Below are positions 22,865 to 54,895 of a stretch of 64,000 nucleotides of DNA, in pieces; position 1 is the first letter of the stretch, and every line of letters starts with the position of its first letter. The DNA is from a virus: the IMG/VR virus record IMGVR_UViG_3300003322_000423, positions 34,590 through 98,589 of that record. One strand, written 5' to 3'. A model generated the notes under the pieces. That model made no database searches, was not told the origin of the DNA, and saw only the letters and a list, made by a program, of their open reading frames with translations. Made by a program: the position numbers and the translations under genes.

Positions 22865-22867
22865 ATG

Positions 22868-22938: not shown

Positions 22939-22941
22939 ATG

Positions 22942-23285: not shown

Positions 23286-23357
23286 TCCGGGTGGGGATAA
23301 TCGAAATCCCTATACGACTTCCCAAAAGTCGCGTGTTAACCATTACACTACACCCAG
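23286..23357 (-). tRNA. tRNA-Pro (UGG)
   Basis: Stem CGACU/AGUCG around UUUGGGA; acceptor CUGGGUG/CACCCGG with C1-G72, A73. Confidence 0.92.
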
Positions 23358-23361
23358 TCAG

Positions 23362-23432
23362 AGCGATATAGGAGAATCGAACTCCTGTAGTCTGTTTGGA
23401 AGACAGAGGCTTTACCATTAAGCTAATATCGC
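23362..23432 (-). tRNA. tRNA-Gly (UCC)
   Basis: Stem UCUGU/ACAGA around CUUCCAA; acceptor GCGAUAU/AUAUCGC, U73. Confidence 0.93.
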
Positions 23433-23482
23433 ATTGCTATTTTCGTCCACGTAGGCGCCCTGGAACCGGCATAGCTGCCTCG

Positions 23483-23554
23483 TACCCAGTAACAGATTCG
23501 AACTGTTGACACGCGCGGTGTAAACGCGATGCTCTTCCCCTGAGCTAACCGGGT
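23483..23554 (-). tRNA. tRNA-Val (UAC)
   Basis: Stem CGCG/CGCG around UUUACAC; acceptor ACCCGGU/ACUGGGU, A73. Confidence 0.88.
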
Positions 23555-23604
23555 TTATGGGCCCCCGGAAAGTTTATAGTCTGTCGGTTCCAGCCCTAGA
23601 CTTG

Positions 23605-23677
23605 AGCCCCCAGTACGATTTGAACGCACGACCTGCCGCTTACAAGGCGGCTGCTCTAACCCCTGAGCTATGGAGGC
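23605..23677 (-). tRNA. tRNA-Thr (UGU)
   Basis: Stem GCCGC/GCGGC around CUUGUAA; acceptor GCCUCCA/UGGGGGC, U73. Confidence 0.92.
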
Positions 23678-23690
23678 ATGTATTTAGTTA

Positions 23691-23762
23691 TGTGACCACA
23701 GGGAATCGAACCCTGATCTTGCGGACCACAACCGCGTGCACTAGCCATTGTGCTATGGTCAC
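23691..23762 (-). tRNA. tRNA-His (GUG)
   Basis: Stem GCGG/CCGC around UUGUGGU; acceptor GUGACCA/UGGUCAC preceded by G (position -1). Base 73 is A rather than the usual C. Confidence 0.88.
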
Positions 23763-23764
23763 CG

Positions 23765-23838
23765 CTCCCGATCTATGACTCGAACATAGAACCTCTGCGT
23801 CCAGAGCGCAGCGCAACTACCAATTGTGCTAATCGGGA
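23765..23838 (-). tRNA. tRNA-Gln (CUG)
   Basis: Stem CUGCG/CGCAG around CUCUGGA; acceptor UCCCGAU/AUCGGGA with U1-A72 and G73, as for Gln. Confidence 0.88.
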
Positions 23839-23852
23839 TTGATTCAGTTATA

Positions 23853-23955
23853 AGACCTTACTACCCGACGACCTCGTGCCGCCCTAACCTAACCATGAAC
23901 GAGAGGGGTTGCAACCACTGTGACATCTCGTTCCCCTACTTTCCTCGTAAGGTCT
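23853..23955 (-). other. Structured spacer with nested stems
   Basis: Outer AGACCTTAC (23853-23861) with GTAAGGTCT (23947-23955); inner GAACGAGA (23897-23904) with TCTCGTTC (23926-23933). Confidence 0.6.
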
Positions 23956-23957
23956 CG

Positions 23958-24044
23958 CTCAGGTGGCTGGAATTGAACCAGCGAAGGATTTCTCCGAAAC
24001 GGTTAACAGCCGCACCCAACATCGCCAACGGTTGGCCCACCTGA
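23958..24044 (-). tRNA. tRNA-Asn (GUU) with a long variable arm
   Basis: 87 nt. Acceptor UCAGGUG/CACCUGA with U1-A72 and G73 (Asn-like). D arm CCAA/UUGG with a 12-nt loop. Stem GCGG/CCGU around CUGUUAA. T arm GCUGG-UUCAAUU-CCAGC. Between the anticodon and T arms lie about 16 nt with a GGA-GAAA-UCC hairpin, a class II arm normally restricted to Leu, Ser and Tyr. Confidence 0.8.
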
Positions 24045-24049
24045 TCGCT

Positions 24050-24475
24050 TTATGCAATTATATCTGAACCCGAGTACAACCCTGTTCGGTACAGACGCTT
24101 TGCGGTCTTACACCTATCACATCTACAGGTCATCTCGTGATACATTCTAGCAGTGCCGTGGTAGTATTCACCTCGAATACCTTTATTCCAAGGCGTGATG
24201 GCACCGTCTCTCCACTGCTGTTTAGTCTTTTCATCATGACAAGTTTTACACACTACTTCACACTTGTCAAGTTCTTCTAGAATACTTTTCCAGGATCTAT
24301 CTAAACCCGCCCCGGATAAAGTAAACGACTTTGTAGTGGGGTCTTTGTGGTTAAGCTCTAAATCATCAGGACTGCCACAGTCTACGCATTCACTACCGGA
24401 CAGGTCAAATAATTTTTGTCGACGTGTTTTACGTCGATTGGCCATATAGGTCTTCATATATTCGTTAGTAGGCAT
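24050..24475 (-). CDS. HNH homing endonuclease
   Basis: 141 residues. A basic N-terminus is followed by CVDCG, LELNHKDP, VVCKTCHDEKT (HNH core) and a second CRCDRC zinc pair near the C-terminus. It ends 6 nt before tRNA-Asn, the second HNH gene inserted in the tRNA array. Confidence 0.88.
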   Translation of the reverse strand: MPTNEYMKTYMANRRKTRRQKLFDLSGSECVDCGSPDDLELNHKDPTTKSFTLSGAGLDRSWKSILEELDKCEVVCKTCHDEKTKQQWRDGAITPWNKGIRGEYYHGTARMYHEMTCRCDRCKTAKRLYRTGLYSGSDIIA

Positions 24476-24513
24476 ACATTCATTTTAACATGAAATGCTC
24501 TACCAGTAAAGAG

Positions 24514-24584
24514 CAGGCCCAGAAAGAGTCGAACTTTCCCTTTGAGACTTGGAAACTCATGTGCTTCCGATACACTATGGACCC
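24514..24584 (-). tRNA. tRNA-Trp (CCA)
   Basis: Stem UGAG/CUCA with a U31-U39 clash, loop UUCCAAG; acceptor GGGUCCA/UGGGCCU, G73. Confidence 0.85.
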
Positions 24585-24628
24585 GTGAGAGACCATGATA
24601 ACACATAGTCTCTGTTTTGTCTATTCTG

Positions 24629-24698
24629 CCGGGATACTGGGATTCGAACCCAGGTAGGGCTTCAGGGACCCGGTACTTGGCCGCTGTACGATACCCCT
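24629..24698 (-). tRNA. tRNA-Gln-like (CUG) with C33
   Basis: The 5' half closely follows the bacterial tRNA-Gln layout (GGGGUAUCG...AGCGG...ACCGG). Stem GGGU/GCCC with loop CCCUGAA puts C at position 33. 1:72 is an A-G mismatch, G73. Second Gln (CUG) gene; may be weak or decayed. Confidence 0.6.
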
Positions 24699-24792
24699 AC
24701 CCACAAGGTCGACTTCTTGCGGGCTCCCCTCAGCGTTTCGAACCGCATTGAGGGGCAACAGAAAACGTGTCAGCTTTCGCTGATCAAACCGG

Positions 24793-24853
24793 GCACCGAG
24801 GATATCTTAAACCAGACTTCTAATCCCGCAGGACGTTGTCACTGGCTCGGTGC
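24793..24853 (-). other. Structured spacer stem
   Basis: GCACCGAG (24793-24800) pairs with CTCGGTGC (24846-24853). Upstream in the same 197-nt spacer, CCCCTCA/TGAGGGG and CAGC-TTTC-GCTG hairpins also occur. No gene. Confidence 0.55.
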
Positions 24854-24895
24854 GCCCCCTTGTGCACAGGGCGCTAAGGCGACCCAGGGGGTTTG

Positions 24896-24968
24896 CGCTC
24901 TTGGAGGGATTCGAACCCCCGACCTTGACGATAGAAGCGTCTTGCTCTTTCCACTGAGCTACAAGAGC
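24896..24968 (-). tRNA. tRNA-Arg (UCU)
   Basis: Stem GACG/CGUC around CUUCUAU; acceptor GCUCUUG/CAAGAGC, G73. Confidence 0.92.
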
Positions 24969-25034
24969 TTGGAGCCTGCACGTTGCCCTCAATGGCAGGC
25001 TCTATTCAGTTGTATTGACCCATCCTAAGGTCAG

Positions 25035-25109
25035 TACCGGTGACGGGGCTCGAACCCGCGTTCTTCTGACTGAGAATCAGATGAGCTTTGCCAACAGCTC
25101 CACACCGGC
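25035..25109 (-). tRNA. tRNA-Glu (CUC)
   Basis: Stem UCUGA/UCAGA around UUCUCAG; acceptor GCCGGUG/CACCGGU, A73. Confidence 0.9.
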
Positions 25110-25113
25110 AAGC

Positions 25114-25172
25114 CCACAGCTTTTATTTCGGTACCTTCGGGCTGGAGTTCCCAGGTCTTACTTAGGCTGTGG
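25114..25172 (-). other. Structured spacer stem
   Basis: CCACAGC (25114-25120) with GCTGTGG (25166-25172), inner CTGG/CCAG hairpin. Confidence 0.55.
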
Positions 25173-25210
25173 CGGTATTCCAGAGTTACTTCGAATAGCC
25201 TCTAGAACCG

Positions 25211-25287
25211 TATCCGAGACCGGAATCGAACCGGCGTCTTCTCCTGATTGAAAGTCAGGGCACCCCTGCCAACAGAGTAACTCGGAC
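25211..25287 (-). tRNA. tRNA-Glu (UUC)
   Basis: Stem CCUGA/UCAGG around CUUUCAA; acceptor GUCCGAG/CUCGGAU, A73. Confidence 0.92.
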
Positions 25288-25378
25288 TTGGACCGGTTTT
25301 TGTTTCTAACCAGAGCACTCCGGGGGCTACCCGGCACTATACTGGCCCTAATTCAGAACCCGTCCCCGAAACTGAACG

Positions 25379-25454
25379 TACCTGTGAAAGGACTCGAACC
25401 TTCAAACCTTCTGATCCTAAGTCAGACGCCTCTACCAAATTGGGCTACACAGGC
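25379..25454 (-). tRNA. tRNA-Leu (UAG) with a short variable loop
   Basis: Stem UCUGA/UCAGA around CUUAGGA; acceptor GCCUGUG/CACAGGU, A73; T arm GAAGG-UUCGAGU-CCUUU. Only 6 nt (AGGUUU) separate anticodon and T arms, whereas bacterial tRNA-Leu normally has a long variable arm. Confidence 0.82.
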
Positions 25455-25459
25455 TTAAA

Positions 25460-25535
25460 ACCCTGGGCTGGAAGCATCCAGCAGTATGGAAACTTATAGT
25501 GGTTGACTTGTGAGGGAAAACGCACTACCCAGGGT
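25460..25535 (-). other. Spacer folding as a three-way junction
   Basis: Outer ACCCTGG (25460-25466)/CCAGGGT (25529-25535); inner hairpin GCTGG/CCAGC (25467-25482); inner hairpin TAGTG/CACTA (25497-25527). Confidence 0.6.
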
Positions 25536-25538
25536 CAG

Positions 25539-25612
25539 TACTCCGACTCGGACTTGAACCGAGGACACGCGGATTAAGAGTCCGCTGCTACTACCAACTG
25601 AGCTACCGGAGC
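25539..25612 (-). tRNA. tRNA-Lys (CUU)
   Basis: Stem GCGGA/UCCGC around CUCUUAA; acceptor GCUCCGG/UCGGAGU, A73. Confidence 0.92.
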
Positions 25613-25916
25613 GAGAAAAAACTATTCTAGCATACCCCGAAGGGTGGCGGGTGGGGTGATTTCCCACAACAGAGGGCAGGCCATTAGCCGATTTAATTAC
25701 CTCTGAACCACACGTTAGCCGCTAAGCACGAATTCAGGCGCATCGCTAAATGCCCTTCCGTCAACTTCCTCACCGATTGGCTCTGGATAAAGGGGTGGCC
25801 CTTTGGGGTGCCCGCCCAAGCTTACGTTTGTCTTCCGCCGTGTGTACAATCCATCCCCCGATCTGCATAGGGGATCGTTTCTGTCACCGCCCACACTTCC
25901 CGTCGGAAGTGTGTTG
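25613..25916 (-). other. 304-nt structured spacer, no gene
   Basis: No convincing ORF. Right end: GTACAA (25844-25849) pairs with TTGTAC (25914-25919), enclosing CGATC/GATCG and a perfect 9-bp CACACTTCC/GGAAGTGTG hairpin (25892-25913). AAAGGG/CCCTTT hairpin near 25790-25806. Confidence 0.5.
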
Positions 25917-25996
25917 TACCCACAGAGGGATTCGAACCCTCACGCCATAAGGCATCGCTTTTGAGGCGACTGACTATACCGTTCGTCTATGCGGGC
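25917..25996 (-). tRNA. tRNA-Leu (CAA)
   Basis: Stem UCGC/GCGA around CUCAAAA, long variable arm, acceptor GCCCGCA/UGUGGGU, A73. Reads UUG; no UUA-reading Leu tRNA is seen in this window. Confidence 0.9.
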
Positions 25997-26131
25997 CTCA
26001 CCCTTGATTGCGCTACCACGCTCAAGGGCTTACCTCAGCTCTAGGTGAGGTCACAACAGCTCTCTAAACCCGGAGCCAGGGCGCCTCACGGTTTATGGTA
26101 GCTCCGTGAGAACTTCAAGCTTGTGTCACCC

Positions 26132-26162
26132 CTCTGCCGGGGGGAAAGGAAACTCGGCAGAG
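26132..26162 (-). terminator. Hairpin after the DUF7448-like gene
   Basis: CTCTGCCG/CGGCAGAG stem directly after the stop at 26171. The rest of the 25997-26170 spacer has CCCTTGA/TCAAGGG, CCTCA/TGAGG and TCACGG/CCGTGA hairpins. Confidence 0.5.
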
Positions 26163-26170
26163 AGGGACGG

Positions 26171-26572
26171 CTAAAGGTCTTCCACCATTATATGGAAACC
26201 GTATGCATAGTAGAAAGGGTTCCCCGCTGACCAGCCAACATCAAGCTTGAGCACATCACCCATGTCGGCGTAAATGTGCCAAGTCTGGTATCCGTCAGTC
26301 GTACCCACGCCCGTGATAATGTGGTCAACCATTTCGGGGTGGAGCAGAAAACCTTCAAGTTCTGTATAGGCGCAACAGTCGCTCTCACCGACAAGGGTCA
26401 CTGCTTTACCGTTGTCCAGTATGATCCGGCCTTCGGGTGACACGCTGACGATTTTGTGGCCTACGACAGCTTCAGCAAGAGCATTCTTGCTGTCAACCAT
26501 TGTACCGTTGTCTGTTTCTTCGTCAAGGATTTCCTCTTTGTACAGACGTTTGTGCTTGTACTTTTTGGCCAT
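26171..26572 (-). CDS. DUF7448-like protein of unknown function
   Basis: 133 residues. DCCAYTELEGF, the YADMGDVLKLDVGWS stretch and the ending GNPFYYAYGFHI recall a small domain I associate with actinophage DUF7448 proteins (from memory). Start ATG 26572 follows AAAGGAG. Lies within the tRNA array between Leu and Phe. Confidence 0.7.
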   Translation of the reverse strand: MAKKYKHKRLYKEEILDEETDNGTMVDSKNALAEAVVGHKIVSVSPEGRIILDNGKAVTLVGESDCCAYTELEGFLLHPEMVDHIITGVGTTDGYQTWHIYADMGDVLKLDVGWSAGNPFYYAYGFHIMVEDL

Positions 26573-26591
26573 GATAACTCCTTTCAAAAAG

Positions 26592-26663
26592 TAGCTCCCC
26601 GGAGACTCGAACTCCGCACTCAGGCACTTCACGCCCGTGCTTTTCCTGATAAGCTAAAGAGCC
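26592..26663 (-). tRNA. tRNA-Phe (GAA), first gene of the array
   Basis: Stem CGGGC/GCCUG around GUGAAGU; acceptor GGCUCUU/GGGAGCU, A73. Confidence 0.9.
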
Positions 26664-26845: not shown

Positions 26846-27211
26846 CCCCTGATTCGCTCTATCTCGAAGATTCCTTCATTGGTGGTGTAAACGACCTTCT
26901 TCACACCGGCCAGTAAGAGAGCGTTGTAGCAGGCTGGACAAGGTCTCGCCATGCGTGGGTCACCTGCCCGGTTGACCCGTGCAACGTAGATGGTCGCTCC
27001 CTTTGACCGATAAAAGGCACTCCCGTAGGACGGCCATCTCCGCATGGGTGGTGGCGTTCATGTGGTCTATGTCGGGGCGGTTGCGGAAGCGGTTGGTGGA
27101 CCAGCCGAGCACGTTGCCGTTGTTGACTACAAGGGCGCCAAGCTGCCAGCGATATGTGGAAGTTGAGGCAACGTCAAGCGCCCTCTTGATATAGCGTCTA
27201 TGGGTGTTCAT
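26842..27211 (-). CDS. Zinc-dependent deoxycytidylate/cytidine deaminase, split by a +1 frameshift
   Basis: Two frames make one protein. The first (27211 to 26960) carries NNGNVLGWSTNRFRN and THAEMAVLREC, the HAE zinc/proton-shuttle motif. The second (open from 27045 to 26842) carries KGATIYVARVNR and RPCPACYNALLLAGVKKVVY, the PCxxC motif. Neither half can work alone. Joining needs a +1 shift near CTT-TTA-TCG (about 27010-27025). Start ATG after AGGAG. Either a recent indel or programmed frameshifting. Confidence 0.75.
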
Positions 27212-27217
27212 ATGTCT

Positions 27218-27299
27218 CCTGACATGTCAAAGGGCCGGATGCGGTTCTCACCTTGTCCATCCGGCCCGTTCCCCGAGCTGTCCCCTCCTAGGCTCGGGA
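27218..27299 (-). terminator. Two hairpins between operon genes
   Basis: GGGCCGGATG/CATCCGGCCC and CCGAGC/GCTCGG stems between the 27302 gene and the deaminase. The first is GC-rich and terminator-like but has no clear U tract. Confidence 0.5.
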
Positions 27300-27609: not shown

Positions 27610-28371
27610 TCATGAGATGCCTGTCACATCGATACCGGCAAGGCGATGCCTGCCTCTACCGTACTTAGCACATCCCCGGCACTGAAAACGCTGATACACA
27701 CCTGTGGTGGTGTATGCCTTTCCATCGGGACGCAGATCAGTTCCCCCACAGTTTCCACAAGCGTCTAGGTCGCCCGTGTAAAGACCGAGGTGGGGGTGGG
27801 GTTGAATCCAGGGTAACAGTTTATCATAAAGTTTTTCCGTCAATACCACATCTTGCTTGTTGTATTGGCGCATCAACTTCCACGCGGAAGCTTTACCTGC
27901 CATACAATCCAGCCAGAGCTGGAATCCGTTATGACTGGTTTTACCACCTAATCCCAACTCACTGGCCACGTGGTCAAGTTTGTTGCTGGCGAACTTGAAG
28001 TTTTTACGGGCTACTTGAAGGAGATCAACTTGAGCATACGGCGCCGGAGGGTCCATATCCGCGAGAATGAATTCGCGATTAAGGTGTTTGACATCGAAAC
28101 TCTTAGAATTATAACCTACTACTATGTCAGCTTCAGAAAGAAGTTCATGTGCCGCACGTAACATGACAGGTTTACTGTCGTGATAAGTGGAATAGAACAA
28201 TACTTTCTTGTCCCCATGCCATTTGGCCGCGAATGAGATCATTTCCACAGGTTCTACCAACTGTGTAAGACCTATGGACTGATCAAACAACCCCCATGTA
28301 TATGCGAGGTTGGGCCGGTTTTCTATGTCCAGCGTCAGGATTCTCGGACCTGAATAACTTTTGGATTTCAC
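27610..28371 (-). CDS. DEDD-family 3'-5' exonuclease (RNase H fold) with zinc ribbon
   Basis: 253 residues. ILTLDIENRP gives the first D and E, VVGYNSKSFDVKHL the second D, and YNKQDVVLTEKLY the last D with a nearby Tyr. The C-terminus adds a CGNCGG...CRGC zinc ribbon. GTG start 28371 overlaps the stop of the gene before (GTGA). Located directly downstream of the polymerase genes; likely proofreading or repair. Confidence 0.85.
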   Translation of the reverse strand: MKSKSYSGPRILTLDIENRPNLAYTWGLFDQSIGLTQLVEPVEMISFAAKWHGDKKVLFYSTYHDSKPVMLRAAHELLSEADIVVGYNSKSFDVKHLNREFILADMDPPAPYAQVDLLQVARKNFKFASNKLDHVASELGLGGKTSHNGFQLWLDCMAGKASAWKLMRQYNKQDVVLTEKLYDKLLPWIQPHPHLGLYTGDLDACGNCGGTDLRPDGKAYTTTGVYQRFQCRGCAKYGRGRHRLAGIDVTGIS

Positions 28372-28553
28372 GCTTTCTCGTCCTCCCAAAGATTGGGAGT
28401 GCTGAATTGCTTCTCCCACACCTCCGCCGGTTGGTGCATACAGGTGCAACCCTTACAACCCCAATGGGGGGATTGCCCGTGTTGTTCAGCCGAGCCGGAT
28501 TCATATGCTTCGCGGTTGCTGTCAGCCATATCGGCACAATGACTACATATCAT
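28368..28553 (-). CDS. Small cysteine-rich protein
   Basis: 61 residues with CSHC near the start and CKGCTC in the middle, probably binding zinc. Function unknown. Overlaps both neighbours, consistent with the operon pattern here. Confidence 0.6.
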   Translation of the reverse strand: MICSHCADMADSNREAYESGSAEQHGQSPHWGCKGCTCMHQPAEVWEKQFSTPNLWEDEKA

Positions 28554-35706: not shown

Positions 35707-35840
35707 ACTTTGTCCACCACGTAGGGAACACCGGGCTTGATCACTTTGTGTAATTCAATTAGCTTATTGATGTTAGAGGGGTTGGCTTGGGAGGTCCAGG
35801 GGACGTACTCACGGCCATTCCATGTTTTTAAGATGTACAT
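35703..35840 (-). CDS. 45-residue unknown protein
   Basis: Reads MYILKTWNGREYVPW... ending VPYVVDKV. ATGA overlap with the next gene and 13-nt overlap with the previous one fit the operon. No family. Confidence 0.6.
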   Translation of the reverse strand: MYILKTWNGREYVPWTSQANPSNINKLIELHKVIKPGVPYVVDKV

Positions 35841-36361
35841 TCTCTCTTCTTAAGGTACTCCGCCCATCCTTCAGTATCACCCATCATCGAACGGCCTTTA
35901 TCGTACCTGTTATGACAACGCCCACACATCGGGGTATAGTCTTCCAGATCCTCATATTGGCCCGTCAGATTAGCCCACGCTTGGGCTCGTTCACCACAGA
36001 AACAACGGTATTCTTTAGCAGAGCCTTTAGTTTCATACAGGTGTCTGTGAAGAGTGTAGTATGAAGGAATAACAGGGGTTTTACGAATGGAAGTATTCTT
36101 TTTATTTGAATTGTTTTCCCCTAGTTGGGCACATGTTTTAGAACAAAATCGCCCTACGTACTTGTTATCTCTACGCGCAAGAAAGTCTTTGGTGCAGAGT
36201 TCGCATTTACGTAGCTCTAGAGGGTGTTTATGTTGAGGATCGGTAGCGTCATCGTATATAAACTGAGCCCTTGACTTACGCCTACACCCAGATAGGTGAG
36301 GGCCTCTACGACGTGGTTCTATTATCTCTACATTACATTCAGGGCATGTCCATGTATTCAC
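35828..36361 (-). CDS. HNH-type endonuclease with zinc fingers
   Basis: 177 residues. CPECNV at the N-terminus, CELCTKDFLARRD and CSKTC in the middle, then HRHLYETKGSAKEYRCFCGE and PMCGRCHNRYD, an HNH-like core. GTG start is predicted to be leaderless. Confidence 0.75.
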   Translation of the reverse strand: MNTWTCPECNVEIIEPRRRGPHLSGCRRKSRAQFIYDDATDPQHKHPLELRKCELCTKDFLARRDNKYVGRFCSKTCAQLGENNSNKKNTSIRKTPVIPSYYTLHRHLYETKGSAKEYRCFCGERAQAWANLTGQYEDLEDYTPMCGRCHNRYDKGRSMMGDTEGWAEYLKKRECTS

Positions 36362-36406: not shown

Positions 36407-36631
36407 TCACTGGCCTCCCTTCTGGATGTATCCCGCCACGAACTCCTCGGCGTTCTCCTCAAGTACATCGTCGATATCCGACATGAGGTCGTCGAGTTCG
36501 TCATCTATCTTGGCCAAAGTCTCTTCAACAGAAGCATCTAGTTCTTCGTTGCTAAGATCTTTGGCCTGTACTTCTTCAACTTCTTCGGTGGTCTTACTGG
36601 ATTGTTTACTTACCTTCTCTTGGTTACTCAT
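36407..36631 (-). CDS. pup: Prokaryotic ubiquitin-like protein (Pup) homologue
   Basis: 74 residues, highly acidic. The C-terminal part reads DDLMSDIDDVLEENAEEF and ends AGYIQKGGQ, which matches the conserved half of actinobacterial Pup from memory, including the terminal Gly-Gly-Gln that Dop deamidates to Glu before PafA ligates it to lysines. The N-terminal half is disordered-looking, as in host Pup. No PafA or Dop is visible in this window, so it would depend on host enzymes. ATG overlaps the end of the LAGLIDADG gene; GGAG..AGGAC ribosome site. A short host-like length and intact terminus argue for function. Confidence 0.93.
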   Translation of the reverse strand: MSNQEKVSKQSSKTTEEVEEVQAKDLSNEELDASVEETLAKIDDELDDLMSDIDDVLEENAEEFVAGYIQKGGQ

Positions 36632-37001
36632 GTCCTAACTCCTTTAAGCGACTCAATACATTATCTATCTGGCCCTGTCGACGCTTTCCCATATGTGGGC
36701 GTACCAGCTTACACAAGGCCAATACGTCCTGTACTGCGGCGACTTGCCAGTGATAAGCGTCCTTACAATTTGGACGCTTATATTTGTAGACTGATACACT
36801 ACCGATACCCGTGGTGATATGTAAACGAGAAATCACGTCTTCGTCCGTCATGTTACATACCACCTTGGGCCTTAACTGGCCGCCGTGACTGGCCACATAG
36901 AAAGAGCCCTCACCTTCCAGTAGACCAACGACCCACATAAGGTCTATATCCTCTAAAGGTTTTAGCTCACACGGCTTAGGAGGTCTACCTTTATGGCTCA
37001 T
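36624..37001 (-). CDS. LAGLIDADG-type homing endonuclease-like protein
   Basis: 125 residues. WVVGLLEGEGSFYV is the LAGLIDADG helix with following strand. Single copy, so it would act as a dimer. ATGA overlap with the RuvC-like gene. Confidence 0.8.
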   Translation of the reverse strand: MSHKGRPPKPCELKPLEDIDLMWVVGLLEGEGSFYVASHGGQLRPKVVCNMTDEDVISRLHITTGIGSVSVYKYKRPNCKDAYHWQVAAVQDVLALCKLVRPHMGKRRQGQIDNVLSRLKELGHE

Positions 37002-37423
37002 TGGGTCATCCTTAGGTATCTGCGATAGCTGCAACAGTGGGACAAAGCACTGAACGCGTCTTTACGTCCGGGGTCTGTCTTCAGTTCATCTATTGTACCG
37101 CCCATAAGTTGAGCCGCTTCCCGCTGACCTGATAGCCGGTGTTGCTCAACCCGTATGACAGGGTCGGCAGTTCCCCACCCCCACCCGGTCTTAGCAGCGT
37201 ACTTGAGGAATCCGACGATCTCAATAGTAGCCTTAGCCTCTTTGGTGAGATGTGAGCCACTCCGGTAGTCCTCTATAAGGACTACGTCGTCTCTGCCGCC
37301 CTCATCCTCCAGAACATTCCACGCCTCTATAGGGTTGGCAAACTGAGTTGCATAGAAGTCTATGCCGTCTAGCCATGCAACGCCTGTAGCCACTGCTCCC
37401 GGATCAAAACTCCATATGGTCAT
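36998..37423 (-). CDS. RuvC-like Holliday junction resolvase
   Basis: 141 residues. WSFDPGAVATGVAW, VVLIEDYRS and GRKDAFSALSH supply the acidic residues of the RNase H-fold resolvases. Start TGATG-coupled to the gene before. Confidence 0.85.
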   Translation of the reverse strand: MTIWSFDPGAVATGVAWLDGIDFYATQFANPIEAWNVLEDEGGRDDVVLIEDYRSGSHLTKEAKATIEIVGFLKYAAKTGWGWGTADPVIRVEQHRLSGQREAAQLMGGTIDELKTDPGRKDAFSALSHCCSYRRYLRMTQ

Positions 37424-39963: not shown

Positions 39964-41095
39964 TACTTAGATACTCCCGTAGTTCTTCGACAGAGGTAAT
40001 CTGTGCTGGTTCGACACCCCGTACCTCTTCTACGGTGCCGTACGTTCCTGTTGTGTATCTCTTTTCTAGCAGATATTCTACATCTCCGCCAGAGTGTTTA
40101 GTATGACATAGGTCACTAAACCAGCAATCACTACAGCCTTTGTAAGGAATGGTCCTGTAAACGCGCGGATTGTCCAGCATCTCTACCACAACGTTCTGGA
40201 AACCCTCTTTCCAGGACTCTAGCTGTTCTCGGGTGAAGAAGGCTTTTTCACGGTAGAAGAAACGCGTATCGCCCTGTTTATCGATGTCGCGCAAGTGCGA
40301 CAGGATTGCTTCAAAACGCGCGTCTTCAGGGTCTTCACCGTTGTTGGCGATAGCCTGGCAATATCGCTCCAGAGTTGTAGATTGGCGTTTATCCGTGGAC
40401 AGCAATCCATTCTTCAACACCTTCGGTTCTTGGATCGGCTTCTTGGCTATACCGTTGTACAGCACGCCGGTTACTGGCATCCCTGTAAGCCATTCTACGG
40501 CCACGGCGTATCCCTGTGACTGGAAGTGCCACTGCACGTCTTCCGGGCTGGGTTTGGACGTGTAAGTCTTGTTCTCGACTATCCAGAGATTTTCGTGTTC
40601 GTCAACAGCTATGTTGTCCAGGGTGCCACAGAAATACACTTTTTGCCCGGGTCTGGCGATGTTCCAGCCTATGTACTCAGTGATATCTATCTTGAACGGT
40701 ATTTCACAGCCTATGGACGTAAGTCCAGCATCCCCCAGAGGATTAGATAGGCCGTAGTGATCAAAATACTGGACAACAAGATCATGAGCAAGATCGAAAG
40801 CTTCTTCAATTTCCTTTGTCTCCTGAGGCCATGGCTTCATACCGTAGTGTTCAGTATAGAGTGCAACCTTTTCGTCGTAAACCTCTTTGCCGTACGCGTT
40901 AACGGCATAGACTGGGTTGTACCCATTAAAATTGGCCTCAAGAGCTTTATGAATTGCCGTGCCAACATCGAGATAGAGTTTAGGACTGGTCTTATGACGT
41001 ATGCTCTGACGATTTGCTGACTTGAAATCCCAGAGCTGGCGACACCTAAGAAATGACTCTATATCCGAGAACGAAATGTAAACGTCATCAGTCAC
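39953..41095 (-). CDS. Cas4/RecB-like PD-(D/E)XK exonuclease
   Basis: 380 residues. CRQLWDFK early, GTAIHKALE (motif I His), CGTLDNIAVDE then IVENKTY (D-ExK catalytic core), and a C-terminal CSDCWFSDLC completing a four-Cys Fe-S site. Likely processes ends for recombination with the Sak4-like ATPase. GTG start (GTGA). Confidence 0.88.
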   Translation of the reverse strand: MTDDVYISFSDIESFLRCRQLWDFKSANRQSIRHKTSPKLYLDVGTAIHKALEANFNGYNPVYAVNAYGKEVYDEKVALYTEHYGMKPWPQETKEIEEAFDLAHDLVVQYFDHYGLSNPLGDAGLTSIGCEIPFKIDITEYIGWNIARPGQKVYFCGTLDNIAVDEHENLWIVENKTYTSKPSPEDVQWHFQSQGYAVAVEWLTGMPVTGVLYNGIAKKPIQEPKVLKNGLLSTDKRQSTTLERYCQAIANNGEDPEDARFEAILSHLRDIDKQGDTRFFYREKAFFTREQLESWKEGFQNVVVEMLDNPRVYRTIPYKGCSDCWFSDLCHTKHSGGDVEYLLEKRYTTGTYGTVEEVRGVEPAQITSVEELREYLSNVG

Positions 41096-41235
41096 AGAGC
41101 ATCGTCTATCTTGTCCAAAAGAACCTTAGCATTGCCGAACTCTTTTTGACTCAGATCATCCTGTTCAAGATATAAACCAACTAGATCGCTTAACAGTTCC
41201 AGCTCCACTGGAGTAAACGTCGGTCCGTCGCACAC
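41092..41235 (-). CDS. Small acidic protein
   Basis: 47 residues (VELELLSDLVGLYLEQ...). GTG with GGGAGG 5 nt upstream and GTGA coupling to the Cas4-like gene support it, although it overlaps the deaminase tail by 71 nt. Confidence 0.55.
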   Translation of the reverse strand: MCDGPTFTPVELELLSDLVGLYLEQDDLSQKEFGNAKVLLDKIDDAL

Positions 41236-41626
41236 ATTCGCCTCCCGGCCATACGACCCTAGCTAGGGTGGTGTTTTTGATGAGTTTCATACAACCTTGG
41301 CACGGCTCGTCTGTTATGTAAAGGGTGCCACCCTCTAGGCGTTGTCTATCCGCGAACAACAGGGCATTGGCCTCTGCGTGGACACTATGGCATGCGCCTG
41401 GGCCGGTGTCATAACTGGAGCCCGGGGATACATCAGAGTTGGCCCTAGGGCACTCTCCGGCCAGACAAGACGGCCCCCCTGGGTAGCTGCCATTGTAGCC
41501 CGTAGATGCAATTCGGTGTTCCGTATCAAATATTACGGCCCCTACCTTACGCCGCGAACAATCCGCACGTAGAGATACCGCAGAGGCTATATGGAGTCCG
41601 TAATCATCCCACGATAGTCGCTTCAT
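41165..41626 (-). CDS. dCMP deaminase
   Basis: 153 residues. SVHAEANALLFA and DEPCQGCMKLI form the zinc site (HAE, PCxxC). RRKVGAVIFD and GYNGSYPG match dCMP deaminases. Supplies dUMP for ThyX. This is an intact copy, unlike the split deaminase at 26842. Confidence 0.92.
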   Translation of the reverse strand: MKRLSWDDYGLHIASAVSLRADCSRRKVGAVIFDTEHRIASTGYNGSYPGGPSCLAGECPRANSDVSPGSSYDTGPGACHSVHAEANALLFADRQRLEGGTLYITDEPCQGCMKLIKNTTLARVVWPGGECVRRTDVYSSGAGTVKRSSWFIS

Positions 41627-41706
41627 GTCTTACTGTTCCACCATCCGAGTAATAGGCCCCCTATGGTTCCCACAGGTACAGCTATATACCACTCCCACCA
41701 TGCCAT
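41623..41706 (-). CDS. 27-residue membrane micro-protein
   Basis: MAWWEWYIAVPVGTIGG... one TM segment. GAGG site and ATGA coupling to the deaminase. Confidence 0.6.
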   Translation of the reverse strand: MAWWEWYIAVPVGTIGGLLLGWWNSKT

Positions 41707-41855
41707 CCGTGCCTCATAAAACAAGAGTTAAGGTGCTTTTTACAGTAACCATCGTAGAAAAAGCCTCTATAGCATCTCAGGCTAAGTTTATGGCTTCTAT
41801 GTAAACAACGTAGATAATATCCGTTGAATAGTTTCCGGGACAGCTTGTGAATCAT
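41682..41855 (-). CDS. Basic Cys-rich small protein
   Basis: 57 residues with four Cys and several His (LRCLHRSHK, YCKKHLNSC), possibly zinc-binding. GGGG site before ATG; overlaps the next gene by 25 nt. Confidence 0.5.
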   Translation of the reverse strand: MIHKLSRKLFNGYYLRCLHRSHKLSLRCYRGFFYDGYCKKHLNSCFMRHGWHGGSGI

Positions 41856-41857
41856 GA

Positions 41858-41950
41858 CTACCCCTTACCATGCCTGATCCAGCATCCGCCAGGACTCCCT
41901 GAAGGGCTTTTCTCTCCACATACAGGACAGCGACTTTCAGTTTCACTCAT
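41858..41950 (-). CDS. 30-residue zinc-knuckle micro-protein
   Basis: CPVCGEKSPSGSPGGCWIRHG with ATGA coupling to the HNH gene. One half-knuckle plus Cys/His. Confidence 0.55.
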   Translation of the reverse strand: MSETESRCPVCGEKSPSGSPGGCWIRHGKG

Positions 41951-42288
41951 TCTTCACCCTCTATTGCAGCTTCCATATCTGAGATGGGCCACTTCCAATT
42001 GTGGATTTCAGGTTCACATACATAACCTTCGTACCACATGCATGGACAGTCACTTGCCTTGGCCTGGTTACAGACAAGGTGGACAAGAGCCAAATTCTCG
42101 GGGTCTCTTGTGCCCCCACGTGATTTGGGTACGACATGATCTAGATTTAGTAAATCAGAGTACAGGATGCGCCGACGGATTTGTTTGCTACATATAGCAC
42201 ACCGATATCTTTGACGTATCCATAGGCGCATCCTGAATGACAGGGTCTTTCTCCGGGGACGCTGAGAACCGCCTTTTTTCTTTCCCAT
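41947..42288 (-). CDS. HNH endonuclease
   Basis: 113 residues. CAICSKQIRRRI, NLDHVVPKSRGG and NLALVHLVCNQAK are the classic HNH motif. May be homing or packaging-related; no terminase nearby, so homing or free-standing nuclease is favoured. Confidence 0.9.
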   Translation of the reverse strand: MGKKKGGSQRPRRKTLSFRMRLWIRQRYRCAICSKQIRRRILYSDLLNLDHVVPKSRGGTRDPENLALVHLVCNQAKASDCPCMWYEGYVCEPEIHNWKWPISDMEAAIEGEE

Positions 42289-42300
42289 CGTCCGTCCCGT

Positions 42301-42504
42301 CTATTTCTTGGATTCTTCTGTGTGCCAAAAAGAGTGTGACCAGTAGTCAGCTACATCACTGTCTGTCCGTATATAAAGCTTACCTGGTTCGTCGGCTTTT
42401 GACACCACTCCAGCAGAGATAGGTATTGTGATATCCGTCCCACAGCGGGGGCACGCGATGATAAGTGCCCCCACAGTGTGCATCTCACCGTCTACGTCTG
42501 ACAC
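42301..42504 (-). CDS. Small zinc-ribbon-like protein
   Basis: 67 residues; IIACPRCGTDITIP. GTG with GGGAGG upstream, one-base overlap with the helicase stop. Confidence 0.6.
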   Translation of the reverse strand: MSDVDGEMHTVGALIIACPRCGTDITIPISAGVVSKADEPGKLYIRTDSDVADYWSHSFWHTEESKK

Positions 42505-43919
42505 TAGTCCTCCCGGAGCCAGGATATAAGCGCTCTCTTCAACCCGTCAGTTCTCTGGTTGAGATGTTTTTGAATCGCCATGTCTGGTGTCCCCTTCGCA
42601 AAAACATTGTGGACATTTACCAGTCGTGTTTGCCCGCGCCTCTTCAGGCGCGCTATGCACTGTTCCTGATCTGCCGGTAGTGGACTGTGCTCTAAGAAGA
42701 CAACATCCGAGGCATGAATAAGTGAAATCCCTTCCTTCAATGAGGATATGGTGGCCACTAAGACGCCGTTCGCAGTGCTCTTCCATTGGTCCACTAACTC
42801 TGATCTTTTGTGGGTCGGGACGTCCCCCGTGACGAGCGTGACCGGACGGTCATTTCTAGAAAGGGCCTCTGCCACCGCTCTGGCAGAGTCTTTGTACCAG
42901 ACATACACCACGATCGGCCCGAACCGATCGTCAAGGAAATCACGGACAAAATCAATTTTCGGTTTTTCCTTAGTGGGAGGGTTAGTCGCCAACTGCCGTA
43001 ACCGCGAGTAGAGCGCCCCACCTCCATTGACAAACTCCGAATGCTCAAGATCCGGGTGCTCGATGATGTATTCTTTACGCGCTTGTACAAAGGTTTTCCT
43101 CACAGAAGCTGGTAGGTCGACAAAATAATCACGGTCGCGTTGGTCAAGAGTAGCAAGACTAGGGACATCTTGAAGGGTCCGGCGTAACGAGAATTGACCC
43201 AATATTTGTTGAAAATCGTCTTCAAGTCCACGTCGTAACTGCCCTACTTCCGTACTCCAAGGGGTCTTGACGACGTAGCAGTATTCCTCTACAAATCGCC
43301 AATAGCTCTTGTATGCTTTTTTGTCCCACAATTGCAGCATAGGGAAAAGATCACCCGGCGTATTAACAATAGGTGTACCCGTGAGATACCAAATAGGTGT
43401 CTGAAGGTTAGTCGCCCGTGCTTTCCGCAGTTCCATTACATGCTTAGTGCTCTGACTGCTACGTCCGCGTAAACGATGTGCCTCGTCGAATATGCAGACG
43501 GCCCAGGGTCGCTCCGAGAGTATCCCGTATTGACGCTGACCCGCTAACGGGTGGGGTTGTCCTTTGAGCGTTTTCGGCCACGTCGCTGACCAGTTGTTGT
43601 AACTAGTGATGACAAAGTCTGTCCACGGATTATCAAGGGCTTCGAACCGGGCTTCGAAGCCTTGTCCGTCGGCTGTGACAACCCTAGCGCTTGGCGCAAA
43701 TCGAGAAATCTCATAACACCAGTTCTTCACAAGATACGCAGGGCATGTTACCAGTGCAGGTCTTTTCGTCTCCTGAACTTTCTGATACGCCGCCACAATA
43801 GTAGGAGGAGTTTTACCAACCTAAACGCCGGGCACATCAAAGAGCCCGGCAACCCCCTTAGAGTTCAATAAAAAGTCCTTGGAAGTTTCTTGATAGTCAG
43901 ACAAGGTGTATTGAGTCAC
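42504..43919 (-). CDS. SNF2-type helicase, frame interrupted by TAG inside Walker A
   Basis: The first 32 codons (GTG 43919) read MTQYTLSDYQET... to LFDVPGV, then TAG at 43823-43821, then VGKTPPTIVAAY... to 42504. The rest has CIFDEAHRL (DEAH), WYLTGTPI (motif III), VATISSLKEGISL and EQCIARLKRRGQ (motifs V, VI). Flanking GTT codons surround the TAG; skipping six bases gives DVPGVGKT, a perfect P-loop. A 7-bp GC hairpin (43850-43827) ends right before the first GTT. The start overlaps the end of an HNH gene. Either programmed bypassing or a disabled gene. Confidence 0.85.
43827..43850 (-). other. Hairpin abutting the GTT-TAG-GTT site
   Basis: GCCGGGC (43850-43844) and GCCCGGC (43833-43827) around a 10-nt loop, with zero bases between the stem and the first GTT. 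No T tract follows, so it is not a good terminator. Confidence 0.7.
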
Positions 43920-44346
43920 CGATATCCCATTCTGATCTCGATCTAGGCTTACGTCTACTACATTTACAACATGAACGGCCCCATCCTGTACGGGTAGGAA
44001 ATTCGTACGTGTTGTCAGAAGTGTATTCGTGATTAGCCGGACAATGCGTTTTTATTGCATTTAAAGCCGCTGGCCCGGAACTTCTCATTACATTTTCACG
44101 TTGAGTTTTGGGCCTCAAATGATCTGGATTTACACATGAGGGGTTGTTACACTTGTGTTCTACTATGTAACCCTCAGGTACGGGACCTTTGTGGAGAATA
44201 TATGAGTAAATATGTGCCCGCCAGTAACCTTCACGTTTGGCACCTTTACTTAAACCTCCGTACCCGTTTTTATCCTTCCATGCTGTCCATAACCAACATG
44301 TCTCAGTCTTTTCAACTTTGGCCCAGAATCTGTCTTCCAGGGTCAT
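43897..44346 (-). CDS. HNH homing endonuclease beside the helicase
   Basis: 149 residues. CWLWTAWKDKNGYGG, EGYIVEHKCNNPSC and VNPDHLRPKT are the HNH_3-type motif; a C-terminal CCKC zinc site follows. Its 3' end overlaps the helicase start. Confidence 0.9.
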   Translation of the reverse strand: MTLEDRFWAKVEKTETCWLWTAWKDKNGYGGLSKGAKREGYWRAHIYSYILHKGPVPEGYIVEHKCNNPSCVNPDHLRPKTQRENVMRSSGPAALNAIKTHCPANHEYTSDNTYEFPTRTGWGRSCCKCSRRKPRSRSEWDIGDSIHLV

Positions 44347-44519
44347 ATGTGCTTCCAGCTTCTACGGGAGACTATGGCGCTGATGGTGCCGACACAGACG
44401 TCGTACCTGTTGGACAGCTCTAGCTGTGTCACACCTTCTTTCACGGCCTGACGTATGTCTAGTACGTCTTCCGGCCGTAGCCGGGACAGGTGGTGATTTT
44501 CCCCTCGCTTGGCAGCCAT
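44343..44519 (-). CDS. Small HTH DNA-binding protein
   Basis: 58 residues. VTQLELSNRYDVCVGTISAI is a helix-turn-helix like those fused to HNH proteins; here it is a separate gene coupled to the HNH gene by ATGA. Possibly a detached DNA-binding partner of that nuclease. Confidence 0.75.
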   Translation of the reverse strand: MAAKRGENHHLSRLRPEDVLDIRQAVKEGVTQLELSNRYDVCVGTISAIVSRRSWKHI

Positions 44520-44731
44520 CACAGCCCCACGTCCGGCCATACCTCGAAGATGTACCCTCGGGAGCCCATCTGCGGCTGTAGTTGCTTATGGAGTTCGGAC
44601 AGAAATATCTCATAGAGATAGATGTCAGTGCGGCCCGACTCCACCCAATTGGTGTAAGCAGCGAGGGACTGGGCATCCAGCTCAAGGTGGTACATGGGGT
44701 CAGGTACACCGAACTGTACATTAACTTTCAT
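44519..44731 (-). CDS. Unknown protein
   Basis: 70 residues, no family recognised (LDAQSLAAYTNWVESG). ATG 44731 after GTGAGG. Confidence 0.6.
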   Translation of the reverse strand: MKVNVQFGVPDPMYHLELDAQSLAAYTNWVESGRTDIYLYEIFLSELHKQLQPQMGSRGYIFEVWPDVGL

Positions 44732-44760
44732 AGCAAGCCTCACAGCAAACTTCTAGATCG

Positions 44761-44943
44761 TCATTCCATAGGTCCATCGTCACATTCCTCACAGAAGGCA
44801 AAGGCTTTTGGCATGTCGTCCCACTCTACATCTATCACGCAGTAGTTGAGACATGTTCGGTGGAAAAACTTGTAGCAACCATCACAAGCTACGTCATCTA
44901 ATGCGTCCTGAAAAGGTAAGCCGCAGTCTGTGCATGTGTTCAA
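44761..44943 (-). CDS. PHD/RING-like zinc finger protein
   Basis: 60 residues. CTDC ... VACDGC ... FFHRTC ... CEEC gives the C4-H-C3 ligand order and near spacing of a PHD finger, a domain rare outside eukaryotes. Almost the whole protein is the finger. Coupled to the sigma-like gene (overlap of 4 nt). Confidence 0.65.
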   Translation of the reverse strand: MNTCTDCGLPFQDALDDVACDGCYKFFHRTCLNYCVIDVEWDDMPKAFAFCEECDDGPME

Positions 44944-45986
44944 GGCTGTTCATCCCATTTCCACAGGGCTGATTCCGGGGGAATATCAGCCTCCGTCTTG
45001 TTAGGGTATGCCGACATATAATTGCAGATCTTGCAGTACCGACGATTGGATTTATAGCCCCGGATTTCATGGTCCCGCTTGCAGTGAGTCTTTACCTCTC
45101 GGGGCTTGCGGGGCTTTCTACGAGCGGCCTGACGCTTACGTGTGGCTTCCTGGCAGATCATGCAACGCTTACTGGAAGTCCCGTTGACATTGGTGAATAC
45201 TTTTGTGTTTTCAGGGGTCCGCTTGTGACCGTTTACACACTGTTCCTGGTATTCCTCAGGAAAGAGATGTACTTTAACCGCGTGATGTGCGGCCCGGATC
45301 TTTCGCATACCTGAGGATGAACCACCTGCCAGACCGAGCATAGCCGCTATTTCCTTGGCGTTGAGACCTAGGACGTAGTGCCAATACAGTACCTGTCGCT
45401 CCTCAGAAGGCAGATCTTCCAGAAGCCCTTTGAAGGACATGTCAGCTATCAAGTCTGACTCGAACGACGTGGTCACAGACCCGTAGATGTCGTTTTCGTT
45501 CTCCAAAGTGATAGGTCCTATCGTGTAGGCATTGTGGTCAATTCGATCACGGCCGTTGTATATGGCATGATTGACACCCTTACCCTCTCGCATCTTTTTC
45601 CGTTGAATGGAGACAACGGAAGATGAGATTCCAGTGGACTGCACGATATACTTATTGGTCGGTTCCTCCCCATGGACCGATTCGTATTCAGCTATGCACT
45701 GCTTGATCTTTTCTCGGGTCTTGTCCCCTTGAGCATCTCTACGGCCGTCCCGGGACATAGGAGGCGCTCCTGTAGAGCGTCGGCGTCCCTGCCCGGACTC
45801 GGAGATGAATGCCACGGCCCACAGTTTTGCCCTGTGCGCTACATGCCGAAAGTCGTCGTTTCCGTCCTCAATATCACGCCATGCCCGGATCATGCCCTCT
45901 TGGAAGGCATCGTCATATTCACTGTGACCCCTGTAACTAGCGAGAGATGTGATCAGATACCGTCGAATCTTTTCGATGTCCACCAT
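44940..45986 (-). CDS. RNA polymerase sigma-factor-like protein with C-terminal zinc sites
   Basis: 348 residues. EYDDAFQEGMIRAWRDIE is sigma region 2; EEPTNKYIVQSTGISSSVVS resembles region 3; LEDLPSEERQVLYWHYVLG then AKEIAAMLGLAGGSS is region 4 with its HTH. Two C-terminal zinc-knuckle units (CVNGHKR...CMIC and HCKRDHEIRG...CKIC) are extra. Probably redirects host polymerase to phage promoters. Confidence 0.85.
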   Translation of the reverse strand: MVDIEKIRRYLITSLASYRGHSEYDDAFQEGMIRAWRDIEDGNDDFRHVAHRAKLWAVAFISESGQGRRRSTGAPPMSRDGRRDAQGDKTREKIKQCIAEYESVHGEEPTNKYIVQSTGISSSVVSIQRKKMREGKGVNHAIYNGRDRIDHNAYTIGPITLENENDIYGSVTTSFESDLIADMSFKGLLEDLPSEERQVLYWHYVLGLNAKEIAAMLGLAGGSSSGMRKIRAAHHAVKVHLFPEEYQEQCVNGHKRTPENTKVFTNVNGTSSKRCMICQEATRKRQAARRKPRKPREVKTHCKRDHEIRGYKSNRRYCKICNYMSAYPNKTEADIPPESALWKWDEQP

Positions 45987-46261
45987 TACAGTTCACCTAT
46001 CCTTTCAAGCATCTCAGTTGTGGTTTTATGGGATACAAGACCCTGTTGGCGCATTCTGATAATTGCTGACATGTAAACGTGTCTGCGCTGTTCTGGTTCC
46101 AGTTCGGGGCCGAACTTGGAAATAACCTCCCCTGTGGCAAGCTTCTTACGTCTGGCCTTGACACATAGGGTACATCTGGGAGCGTGTCCGTCCTTGGACT
46201 CCCTACGCTTGCCGAACTCTGTGAAATCTTTGGTTTCACGACACGTATTGCAAGTCTTCAA
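45986..46261 (-). CDS. Zinc-knuckle protein
   Basis: 91 residues. CNTCRETKDFTEFGKRRESK then CTLC is the same knuckle type that precedes HNH domains, here alone. TTG start after GGGAG; coupled to the sigma gene (TAATG). Confidence 0.7.
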   Translation of the reverse strand: MKTCNTCRETKDFTEFGKRRESKDGHAPRCTLCVKARRKKLATGEVISKFGPELEPEQRRHVYMSAIIRMRQQGLVSHKTTTEMLERIGEL

Positions 46262-50318: not shown

Positions 50319-50690
50319 CTAGCACTTGCAGGTTTTAGATTGTTTGTAACAGTTTTTGCACCTAGATCTATTTCTGTTGTGTCTACATGTAAGACATTCT
50401 CGCCATCCTCTAGTGGGGTGTATATACAAATTTTCATCAGTGAAAGGATGACCCTTTTTGCAGGAATCCCTGCGCTCTTCTCTATTATTCTGTAGAGACG
50501 TTACGGGTGTGAGATGGTGTGGGTTTACACACCCTGCGTTATGACAAACGTGGTGAATTACTAAGTTTTTTGGAATTGGTCCCACAAAAATCTCATAAGA
50601 CACTCTGTGAGCTTGTTTCCCTCTAAACTTGCCATATTTGGATGTGCCCGCCGTGGCACCCATCCATTCCCAGCATTCGTGGAAGGGCAC
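50319..50690 (-). CDS. HNH endonuclease
   Basis: 123 residues. HECWEWMGATAG, KNLVIHHVCHNAGC and VNPHHLTPVT form an HNH_3 core; C-terminal CLTC and CKNC zinc residues. GTG start tentative. Confidence 0.88.
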   Translation of the reverse strand: MPFHECWEWMGATAGTSKYGKFRGKQAHRVSYEIFVGPIPKNLVIHHVCHNAGCVNPHHLTPVTSLQNNREERRDSCKKGHPFTDENLYIHPTRGWRECLTCRHNRNRSRCKNCYKQSKTCKC

Positions 50691-53540: not shown

Positions 53541-53758
53541 GCCCGGAGTTCCTTTACTGTGAGGTCGACGCGCTTGTCCCCGACAATGTCATGCAGCACA
53601 GTGTTTATATGCTGCCCGCACGCGTAGCGCTTAAGCCCGTCGCGGCCGACGAATTCCCACGTGGCCCACATCGTGCAGGGAAAGAGGTTGTCCCGCATGT
53701 CGTGCTCCGGATCGTACAACCGGCCGCAGGGGATAGTGAATGCGTTGTCATTCATCAT
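53537..53758 (-). CDS. Unknown Cys/His protein
   Basis: 73 residues; IPCGRLYDPEHD, CTMWATWEF, CGQH: plausible zinc site. No family. Confidence 0.6.
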   Translation of the reverse strand: MMNDNAFTIPCGRLYDPEHDMRDNLFPCTMWATWEFVGRDGLKRYACGQHINTVLHDIVGDKRVDLTVKELRA

Positions 53759-54341
53759 TTGTCCGTCGTTGATTGCGTACTATTCTCAATATAGTACTTG
53801 GGTTAACGTCAAATTCTTTAGCTAGAGTTCGATACCCCACAACACCCTTGAGGTATCTGTCTCGTATCTCTTTTACTTGATCTTCAGACAGTTTACGTAT
53901 TTTTACATTGGTTGTGGGGCGTCGATTCTTCCGTGTCTTATCTTGTTCATTAAGCAGGCTATTTCCTGCAAATAGATGCAACACAGACACACATGAGGGG
54001 TTATCACACGTATGGCACACCATTTCTGGAGTGTATCCGTACACCCATTTAAATATCCATACATGCGCCCTGTGTTGCTGACCCTCCGCCCAAAACCACC
54101 CGTACCCGTCTTTGTCCTTACCTCGTTGCCACACCCGACAATTGGTTATAGGGTCCCTCACCCATTTTGTGTTAAATCTTTCAATAGGTGAGGGACGTGC
54201 CCGTTTAGGTCTATTTGCGTACTCACATTTGTAACAAACCCCTCTTCTATCTTTTGGATCTAAAGATCCAGTTCCCGACTTACTGTGTTTTAGCGGAAAT
54301 TCAACAACCCCTCTATCTAAACCGCATTTAGTACAAATCAT
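53748..54341 (-). CDS. HNH homing endonuclease with C-terminal HTH
   Basis: 197 residues. Zinc knuckle CTKCGLDRG at the start; CRVWQRGKDKDGYGW, MVCHTCDNPSC and VSVLHLFAG form the HNH core; GYRTLAKEFDVNPSTILRIV is the HTH. Inserted next to the SprT-like gene. Confidence 0.88.
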   Translation of the reverse strand: MICTKCGLDRGVVEFPLKHSKSGTGSLDPKDRRGVCYKCEYANRPKRARPSPIERFNTKWVRDPITNCRVWQRGKDKDGYGWFWAEGQQHRAHVWIFKWVYGYTPEMVCHTCDNPSCVSVLHLFAGNSLLNEQDKTRKNRRPTTNVKIRKLSEDQVKEIRDRYLKGVVGYRTLAKEFDVNPSTILRIVRNQRRTNDE

Positions 54342-54343
54342 TT

Positions 54344-54895
54344 TCACATCACCATATCCAGTCCACAGACACATGTGGGAAGCCCTAGATCTGCCCACTT
54401 CTTAGTTAGGCGGATAGTGTATCCACACTCGCACCAGGCTTTCAACATACGTGTTGTTTGAGGCTTAGAGGCGGGTGTAAGGACAGCATGGGGGAAAGGA
54501 CCCAACTTGCCTAGAACGTCACTCAGACGGGCGCTCAGATCGTCTCCCGGCACCGTTGCTGTCATCTTGCCGGTTAGGCCGAGGCCCCGGGCAACACGAC
54601 CGAACTCCTTGCCGTGCCCGGACTGGCAGTCGTCAGCCGCATGGATGAGTTCGTGCAACAGGGTTGCCAGAACTTGAATCGAGTCCGCGATAGCCGGGCT
54701 GATGAAAATCTGCGGCACCTTGTCTTCCGCAGAATTCGAACTGTGGCACACCCCGATAGTAGCCTTTCGCTTCCCTTTGGGCCACCCCACAGACACACGG
54801 ACGATTTCAGGGAGAGGCTTTTCGACGTCCTTGAACCAGGGTCGAAAAATCTCAATGGCATCCATGAGCCACTGTTCACGATTTGTCTCAGCCAT
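54344..54895 (-). CDS. SprT-like metalloprotease with zinc ribbon
   Basis: 183 residues. LHELIHAADDCQSGHGKEF is HExxH plus third His; C-terminal CECG...CVCG ribbon as in Spartan relatives. Second protease of this fold in the window. Confidence 0.88.
   Translation of the reverse strand: MAETNREQWLMDAIEIFRPWFKDVEKPLPEIVRVSVGWPKGKRKATIGVCHSSNSAEDKVPQIFISPAIADSIQVLATLLHELIHAADDCQSGHGKEFGRVARGLGLTGKMTATVPGDDLSARLSDVLGKLGPFPHAVLTPASKPQTTRMLKAWCECGYTIRLTKKWADLGLPTCVCGLDMVM

Follow-up and report, generated by a model that had tools for sequence, protein, structure and literature searches.

Is a phage helicase gene whose ATP-binding loop is cut by an in-frame stop codon a broken gene, or do ribosomes hop over the interruption? 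The gene in question lies on the minus strand of a 64,000-nt window (the whole stretch of DNA that was analysed) from the record IMGVR_UViG_3300003322_000423, an uncultivated virus of 98.6 kb, for which the Streptomyces host assumed in an earlier note on this DNA is not established. To our knowledge, T4 gene 60 is essentially the only case of programmed bypassing in bacteria that has been studied well, and one in a Streptomyces phage has been proposed. The features of the locus, as read from the sequence and in the order of transcription, are as follows:

43897..44346, minus strand: HNH_3 endonuclease gene, 149 aa (PF13392, 3e-13), with a 23-nt overlap with the helicase start
43824..43919, minus strand: helicase segment 1, with a GTG start at 43919; 32 codons, ending ...AGLFDVPGV
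43827..43850, minus strand: hairpin GCCGGGC-TCTTTGATGT-GCCCGGC, a perfect inverted repeat that ends directly at the take-off codon
43824..43826, minus strand: proposed take-off codon GTT (Val)
43821..43823, minus strand: in-frame stop TAG
43818..43820, minus strand: proposed landing codon GTT (Val)
42504..43817, minus strand: helicase segment 2, GKTPPT... to the terminal TAG, with an SNF2-related domain and Helicase_C
43794..43796, minus strand: GTG, the first codon past the stop at which translation could restart, downstream of GKT

The translation of the helicase gene (42504-43919) is VTQYTLSDYQETSKDFLLNSKGVAGLFDVPGV*VGKTPPTIVAAYQ..., beyond which the frame is open as far as its own terminal TAG. 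Segment 2 matches Pfam families PF00176 (2e-22) and PF00271 (1e-8) and PHROG 62 (phage DNA helicase, 8e-72), which together with the conserved motifs identify the protein as an SF2 (SNF2-related) helicase. Segment 1 can be aligned to the N-terminus of four relatives (61-64% identical) that have no insertion and show the unbroken motif expected of such copies: DAPGVGKT in L123, DVPGVGKT in L136, DEPGVGKT in L140 and DSPGVGKT in L141. In the window, the P-loop reads DVPGV-TAG-VGKTPPT (DNA: GTT TAG GTT GGT AAA ACT). The earlier note had reported a Walker A motif cut by GTT-TAG-GTT, which we confirm at positions 43826-43818 of the minus strand, and its statement that a shift of +6 from GTT to GTT restores DVPGVGKT holds at the sequence level. 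An Rfam search of window positions 41000-46000 returned zero matches, so no intron or known RNA element was found there.

The same site is interrupted in a different metagenomic phage, L002 (IMGVR_UViG_3300003323_000307), whose helicase is 51% identical to that of the window. It was the sole locus obtained from the first scan of relatives, in which the motif was not part of the selection. The helicase leader of L002, MPEKILDDYQVESRDFLLNSGRFAGLFDEPGV, is followed by TAG, and the frame with GKTGPSIMAG... sits 5 nt further on. The DNA at the site is GTT TA GTT GGG AAA ACT, with the stop TAG at the same codon as in the window, and a hop of +5 from GTT to GTT restores DEPGVGKT. The insertion measures 6 nt in the window and 5 nt in L002, at an identical position in the ATP-binding loop. 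Both interrupted genes have matched GTT/GTT codons, in different frames, with TAG directly 3' of the take-off codon; the take-off position is GTT in both, and GTC, GTG, GTC and GTA in the uninterrupted relatives. Since L002 was found without motif selection, has its stop at the same codon and, although its frame differs, carries a GTT landing codon that matches in that frame, the recurrence at this site exceeds what chance would give. A hop from GTT to GTT is the one mechanism found that would suit both +6 and +5. The earlier note had suggested looking for the same insert in relatives: L002 has one at the same place (5 nt, GTT to GTT) and the four uninterrupted relatives have none. An unbroken motif in all relatives, which together with the absence of a fusion peptide was to speak against bypass, is not what is found: L002 is interrupted at the same codon.

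These two are the only interrupted genes in the data. Scans by peptide context and by a stop after PGx yielded no further interrupted close relative, and the narrower pattern GLFDxPGx-TAG matched only in L002 and, by chance, in two other places; the loose pattern GTTTAG(N)TTGGNAARAC had many chance matches in viral contigs, and among those listed no other lay within a P-loop. Among isolated phages there was no close relative by DNA (protein identity under 30%), and none was found in host genomes. In the helicase tree, L002 branches outside the other five (support 90/92), so that two changes are required to explain the interrupted state.

The adjacent HNH gene mentioned in the earlier note is present, and its association with the interruption holds among the readable relatives. 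Its protein contains the catalytic H-N-H residues in an HNH_3 domain, as would be expected of a free-standing HNH homing endonuclease. In L002, an HNH_3 homologue (4455-4901) occupies the same place and overlaps the helicase start by 22 nt. An HNH_3 gene lies upstream of the helicase in both interrupted genomes (2/2) and in none of the three readable uninterrupted ones (0/3; L123, L136 and L141), which are small numbers; L140 was left out of this count because its contig ends there. The upstream HNH proteins of the window and L002 are ~38-40% identical and not clearly each other's nearest relatives. Together with two interrupted genes and two changes on the tree, this points either to an old insertion that was lost in some lines or to two gains, neither of which would easily fit a neutral accident. 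A second HNH gene, downstream of the helicase (41947-42288), is also found in the uninterrupted L123 and therefore has no discriminating value. Clavibacter phage CMP1, which has an HNH homologue beside its helicase, was rejected as a parallel, the nuclease being at the other end and the helicase a single ORF.

The abutting hairpin that had been claimed for the locus was located at 43850-43827. Its predicted energy is -17.6 kcal/mol (folded alone), and a hairpin of -15.9 kcal/mol likewise lies just before the take-off codon of L002. Relative to synonymous-codon shuffles that follow the codon usage of the genome, z over the 12 codons preceding the insert was -4.3 in the window and -2.3 in L002, and short spans gave -3.2 to -4.3 and -1.7 to -2.5, respectively; in the uninterrupted L123, L136 and L141, z was -0.6 to +0.4 at the 12-codon setting. 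The uninterrupted L140 also has a strong hairpin (z -2.9 in one setting), and longer flanks weaken the signal (at 28/10 codons, z is -1.1 in the window). The segment of L002 that runs from the take-off codon through the stop to the landing codon is also able to pair with AACUGGAC downstream, which resembles the take-off stem-loop of gene 60. We count the hairpin in favour of bypass as a possible stimulator, as support and not as proof; no strong extra stimulator beyond it was found.

Stop insertions at the same spot in two very different phages, identical flanking Val codons and an adjoining nuclease gene suggest that the ribosome probably hops the insertion. We estimate at about 50% the probability that the locus is a minimal ribosomal bypass site at the helicase Walker A motif, tied to the neighbouring HNH homing-type nuclease gene. 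A very short stop-bearing insertion, linked to that gene, would have invaded the Walker A codons. The ribosome would arrive at GUU while UAG occupies the A site; peptidyl-tRNA-Val, which probably decodes GUU via a wobble pair, would release and re-pair with the second GUU, at a distance of 6 nt in the window and 5 nt in L002, and translation would restart at GGU or GGG, giving an unbroken DxPGVGKT P-loop. A stable hairpin re-forming just behind the take-off codon would favour the forward slide. It counts against a hop that, in E. coli, stop hops have low efficiency when they occur spontaneously; here we infer both the hop and its efficiency. The insertion may make the gene resistant to the endonuclease, in line with a proposal made for T4 gene 60. 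That the HNH enzyme targets the Walker A codons, and that the 5-6 nt insert is a mobile cassette that gives immunity and is silenced by the +5/+6 hop, we suggest only tentatively.

The main rival is a serious one, even if we consider it rather unlikely: a repair scar, for instance after an HNH cut with fill-in repeating GTT, would have inactivated the helicase, and the phage either lives without it or lost it recently. Such a scar is simple. A GTT repeat with TA or TAG in between suits a filled staggered end with added bases, the HNH gene is adjacent, and the inserts differ by 1 nt; a GTT repeated by fill-in of a staggered cut needs no hop, which counts against bypass. A deaminase gene has its frame disrupted in the same two genomes, so that some gene decay is possible. 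The remainder of the helicase gene, however, has not decayed in either phage despite their large divergence: 430 (window) and 417 (L002) open codons are kept, with the motifs intact in both. An alignment of ten homologues has 60 fully invariant columns; of the columns that are otherwise invariant, none is violated by the window and four by L002, which is the most diverged member of the close group. The end branch of the window (0.24, against 0.40 for the uninterrupted L136) shows no acceleration, and the downstream part, compared with L136, has a dN of 0.31 and a dS of 1.87. By these measures the rest of the window helicase gene is under selection, and no relaxed selection was seen in the invariant columns, the branch length or dN/dS. 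A back-up helicase was rejected, as neither the window record nor the L002 record contains a second SF2 helicase (SNF2 or Helicase_C match). A scar also leaves as coincidence that the identical codon was hit twice, each time in a hop-compatible way, and the hairpin exceeds what codon choice needs. The bypass proposed in the earlier note is supported in part: the stop-GTT site and the HNH link stand, and readthrough of a reassigned TAG, frameshifting, a back-up helicase and chance have become less likely, whereas the repeated GTT could also stem from a repair scar.

The other explanations fare worse. It is improbable that translation stops at TAG and restarts past GKT, at GTG in the window and at ATG in L002, to give a helicase without Walker A in a non-ATPase role. 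A start-type codon does occur at the aligned position in both genes, and in L002 this is ATG, at a position that is Val in all relatives; but GTG is present in uninterrupted relatives too, and no Shine-Dalgarno-like sequence lies at a suitable distance before it. Because the restart codon is 3' of GKT, Walker A could not be restored in this way, yet GKT is kept in both phages although it would then be in untranslated RNA, and the intact Walker B, motif VI and other motifs would make little sense without Walker A. Since both metagenomic contigs are uncultivated IMG/VR records, an artefact of sequencing or assembly might be suspected in either or both of them. We consider it very improbable, given that the same site is affected in two separate metagenomes by insertions of 5 and 6 nt, that a 6-nt insertion is untypical of indel errors, and that comparison of frames with relatives revealed one other disruption only, the deaminase gene, in the window record. 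Hardly any weight can be given to readthrough of TAG by a suppressor tRNA or a reassigned code, or to frameshifting at the site. The frame is kept in the window, where readthrough would yield DVPGV-X-VGKT, but two extra residues would enter the P-loop, and the different downstream frame makes it unworkable in L002. TAG is an ordinary stop in the window genome, where it terminates 8/45 conserved genes (helicase included), and it terminates 5/38 in the L002 record; a tRNA with a CTA anticodon was found neither among the 25 tRNAs in the window nor in the L002 record (one tRNA). Three observations (the use of stop codons, the tRNA set and the frame in L002) led to the rejection of reassignment or suppression, and -1 frameshifting in L002 was rejected because CCC GGA GTT allows no re-pairing.

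If ribosomes do bypass the interruption, the closest known system is T4 gene 60, in which a 50-nt gap separates a GGA-UAG take-off site from a GGA landing codon, which also has a 5' stem-loop and a nascent-peptide signal, and whose insert is thought to guard against the nuclease of the nearby HNH gene mobA (PMC5009743, PMC3014915, PMC2988022). The window and L002 resemble it in the matching take-off and landing codons, the UAG right after take-off and the HNH gene nearby, and the gap sequence is missing in the homologues L123, L136, L140 and L141, as gene 60-type bypassing demands. They differ in the gap, which is 3 or 2 nt long (+6/+5 hop) instead of 50 nt, in the codon, Val GUU instead of Gly GGA, and in their location inside Walker A in two divergent phages; the 32-codon leader of the window has neither a KKYK nascent-peptide motif nor an SD-like GAG before the landing codon. 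According to a 2016 review, no natural in-frame stop hop was known at that time (PMC5009743). Hops of +5 and +6 over a stop have been made on synthetic constructs (Weiss 1987, as cited in PMC5009743). As far as that citation describes them, those constructs have the same codons round a stop, with nine nt decoded as one amino acid and exactly +5 and +6; they were designed reporters, whereas the genes here are natural and known from their sequence. In sequence, both the window and L002 have a codon, a stop and the same codon, from which reading would resume in the right frame. The byp elements of Magnusiomyces mitochondria are likewise short insertions in coding genes that are silenced at translation, but they are longer blocks on organelle ribosomes, with 81 sites in one genome and an unused codon in the A site (PMC5009743). 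We therefore regard the interruption as a candidate new variant of bypass or stop hop and not as a proven member. If true, it would be a stop hop without natural precedent and smaller than any known bypass, and would have been either retained or acquired twice over a large evolutionary distance. Stop hops would then need far less machinery than gene 60, homing nucleases could give rise to them repeatedly, and some phage genes annotated as broken would be whole as proteins.

The P-loop is interrupted by other elements in this helicase family. In ~80 more distant homologues it is intact wherever readable, except in L317 and in L129, L249, L250 and L267, which have inteins between the Walker A Lys and Thr (or Ser). 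These inteins mark the P-loop of the family as a homing target, as it is in phage terminases (PMC5050341). P-loop inteins of phage ATPases are, like the insertion proposed here, mobile elements in Walker A codons, but they comprise hundreds of residues and are removed by protein splicing, whereas the window and L002 have 5-6 nt and no intein.

Several minor observations concern the same genomes. HNH-type ORFs are numerous across window positions 22222-54398 (e.g. 22222-22614, 24050-24475, 35828-36361, 41947-42288, 50319-50690 and 53748-54398), and a LAGLIDADG-like ORF lies at 36624-37034. In the L002 genome (L149 / G001:26115-29152), an HNH_3 gene (28036-28491), related to the helicase-linked HNH gene of the window, splits the gene for DNA polymerase. 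The 25 predicted tRNA genes of the window are clustered at 19864-26663 and include an unusual tRNA-Cys (ACA) and no tRNA-Val. The dCMP/cytidine-deaminase-like gene (HAE...PCxxC; 26848-27225, minus strand) has a 1-nt frame disruption (...GTC AAA GGG A GCG ACC...), and in its counterpart in the L002 record (G001:21529-21914) a different length change breaks the gene at the same loop; the gene is intact in G004, G005 and L324-L327, and the loop length varies among relatives. In the distant helicase L317 (~1035-1045), TAG replaces the lysine codon of Walker A (GMGLG-TAG-TWSAVA; the related L302 reads GMGLGKTWSAVA here); this is a one-base change and possibly a mutation or an error.
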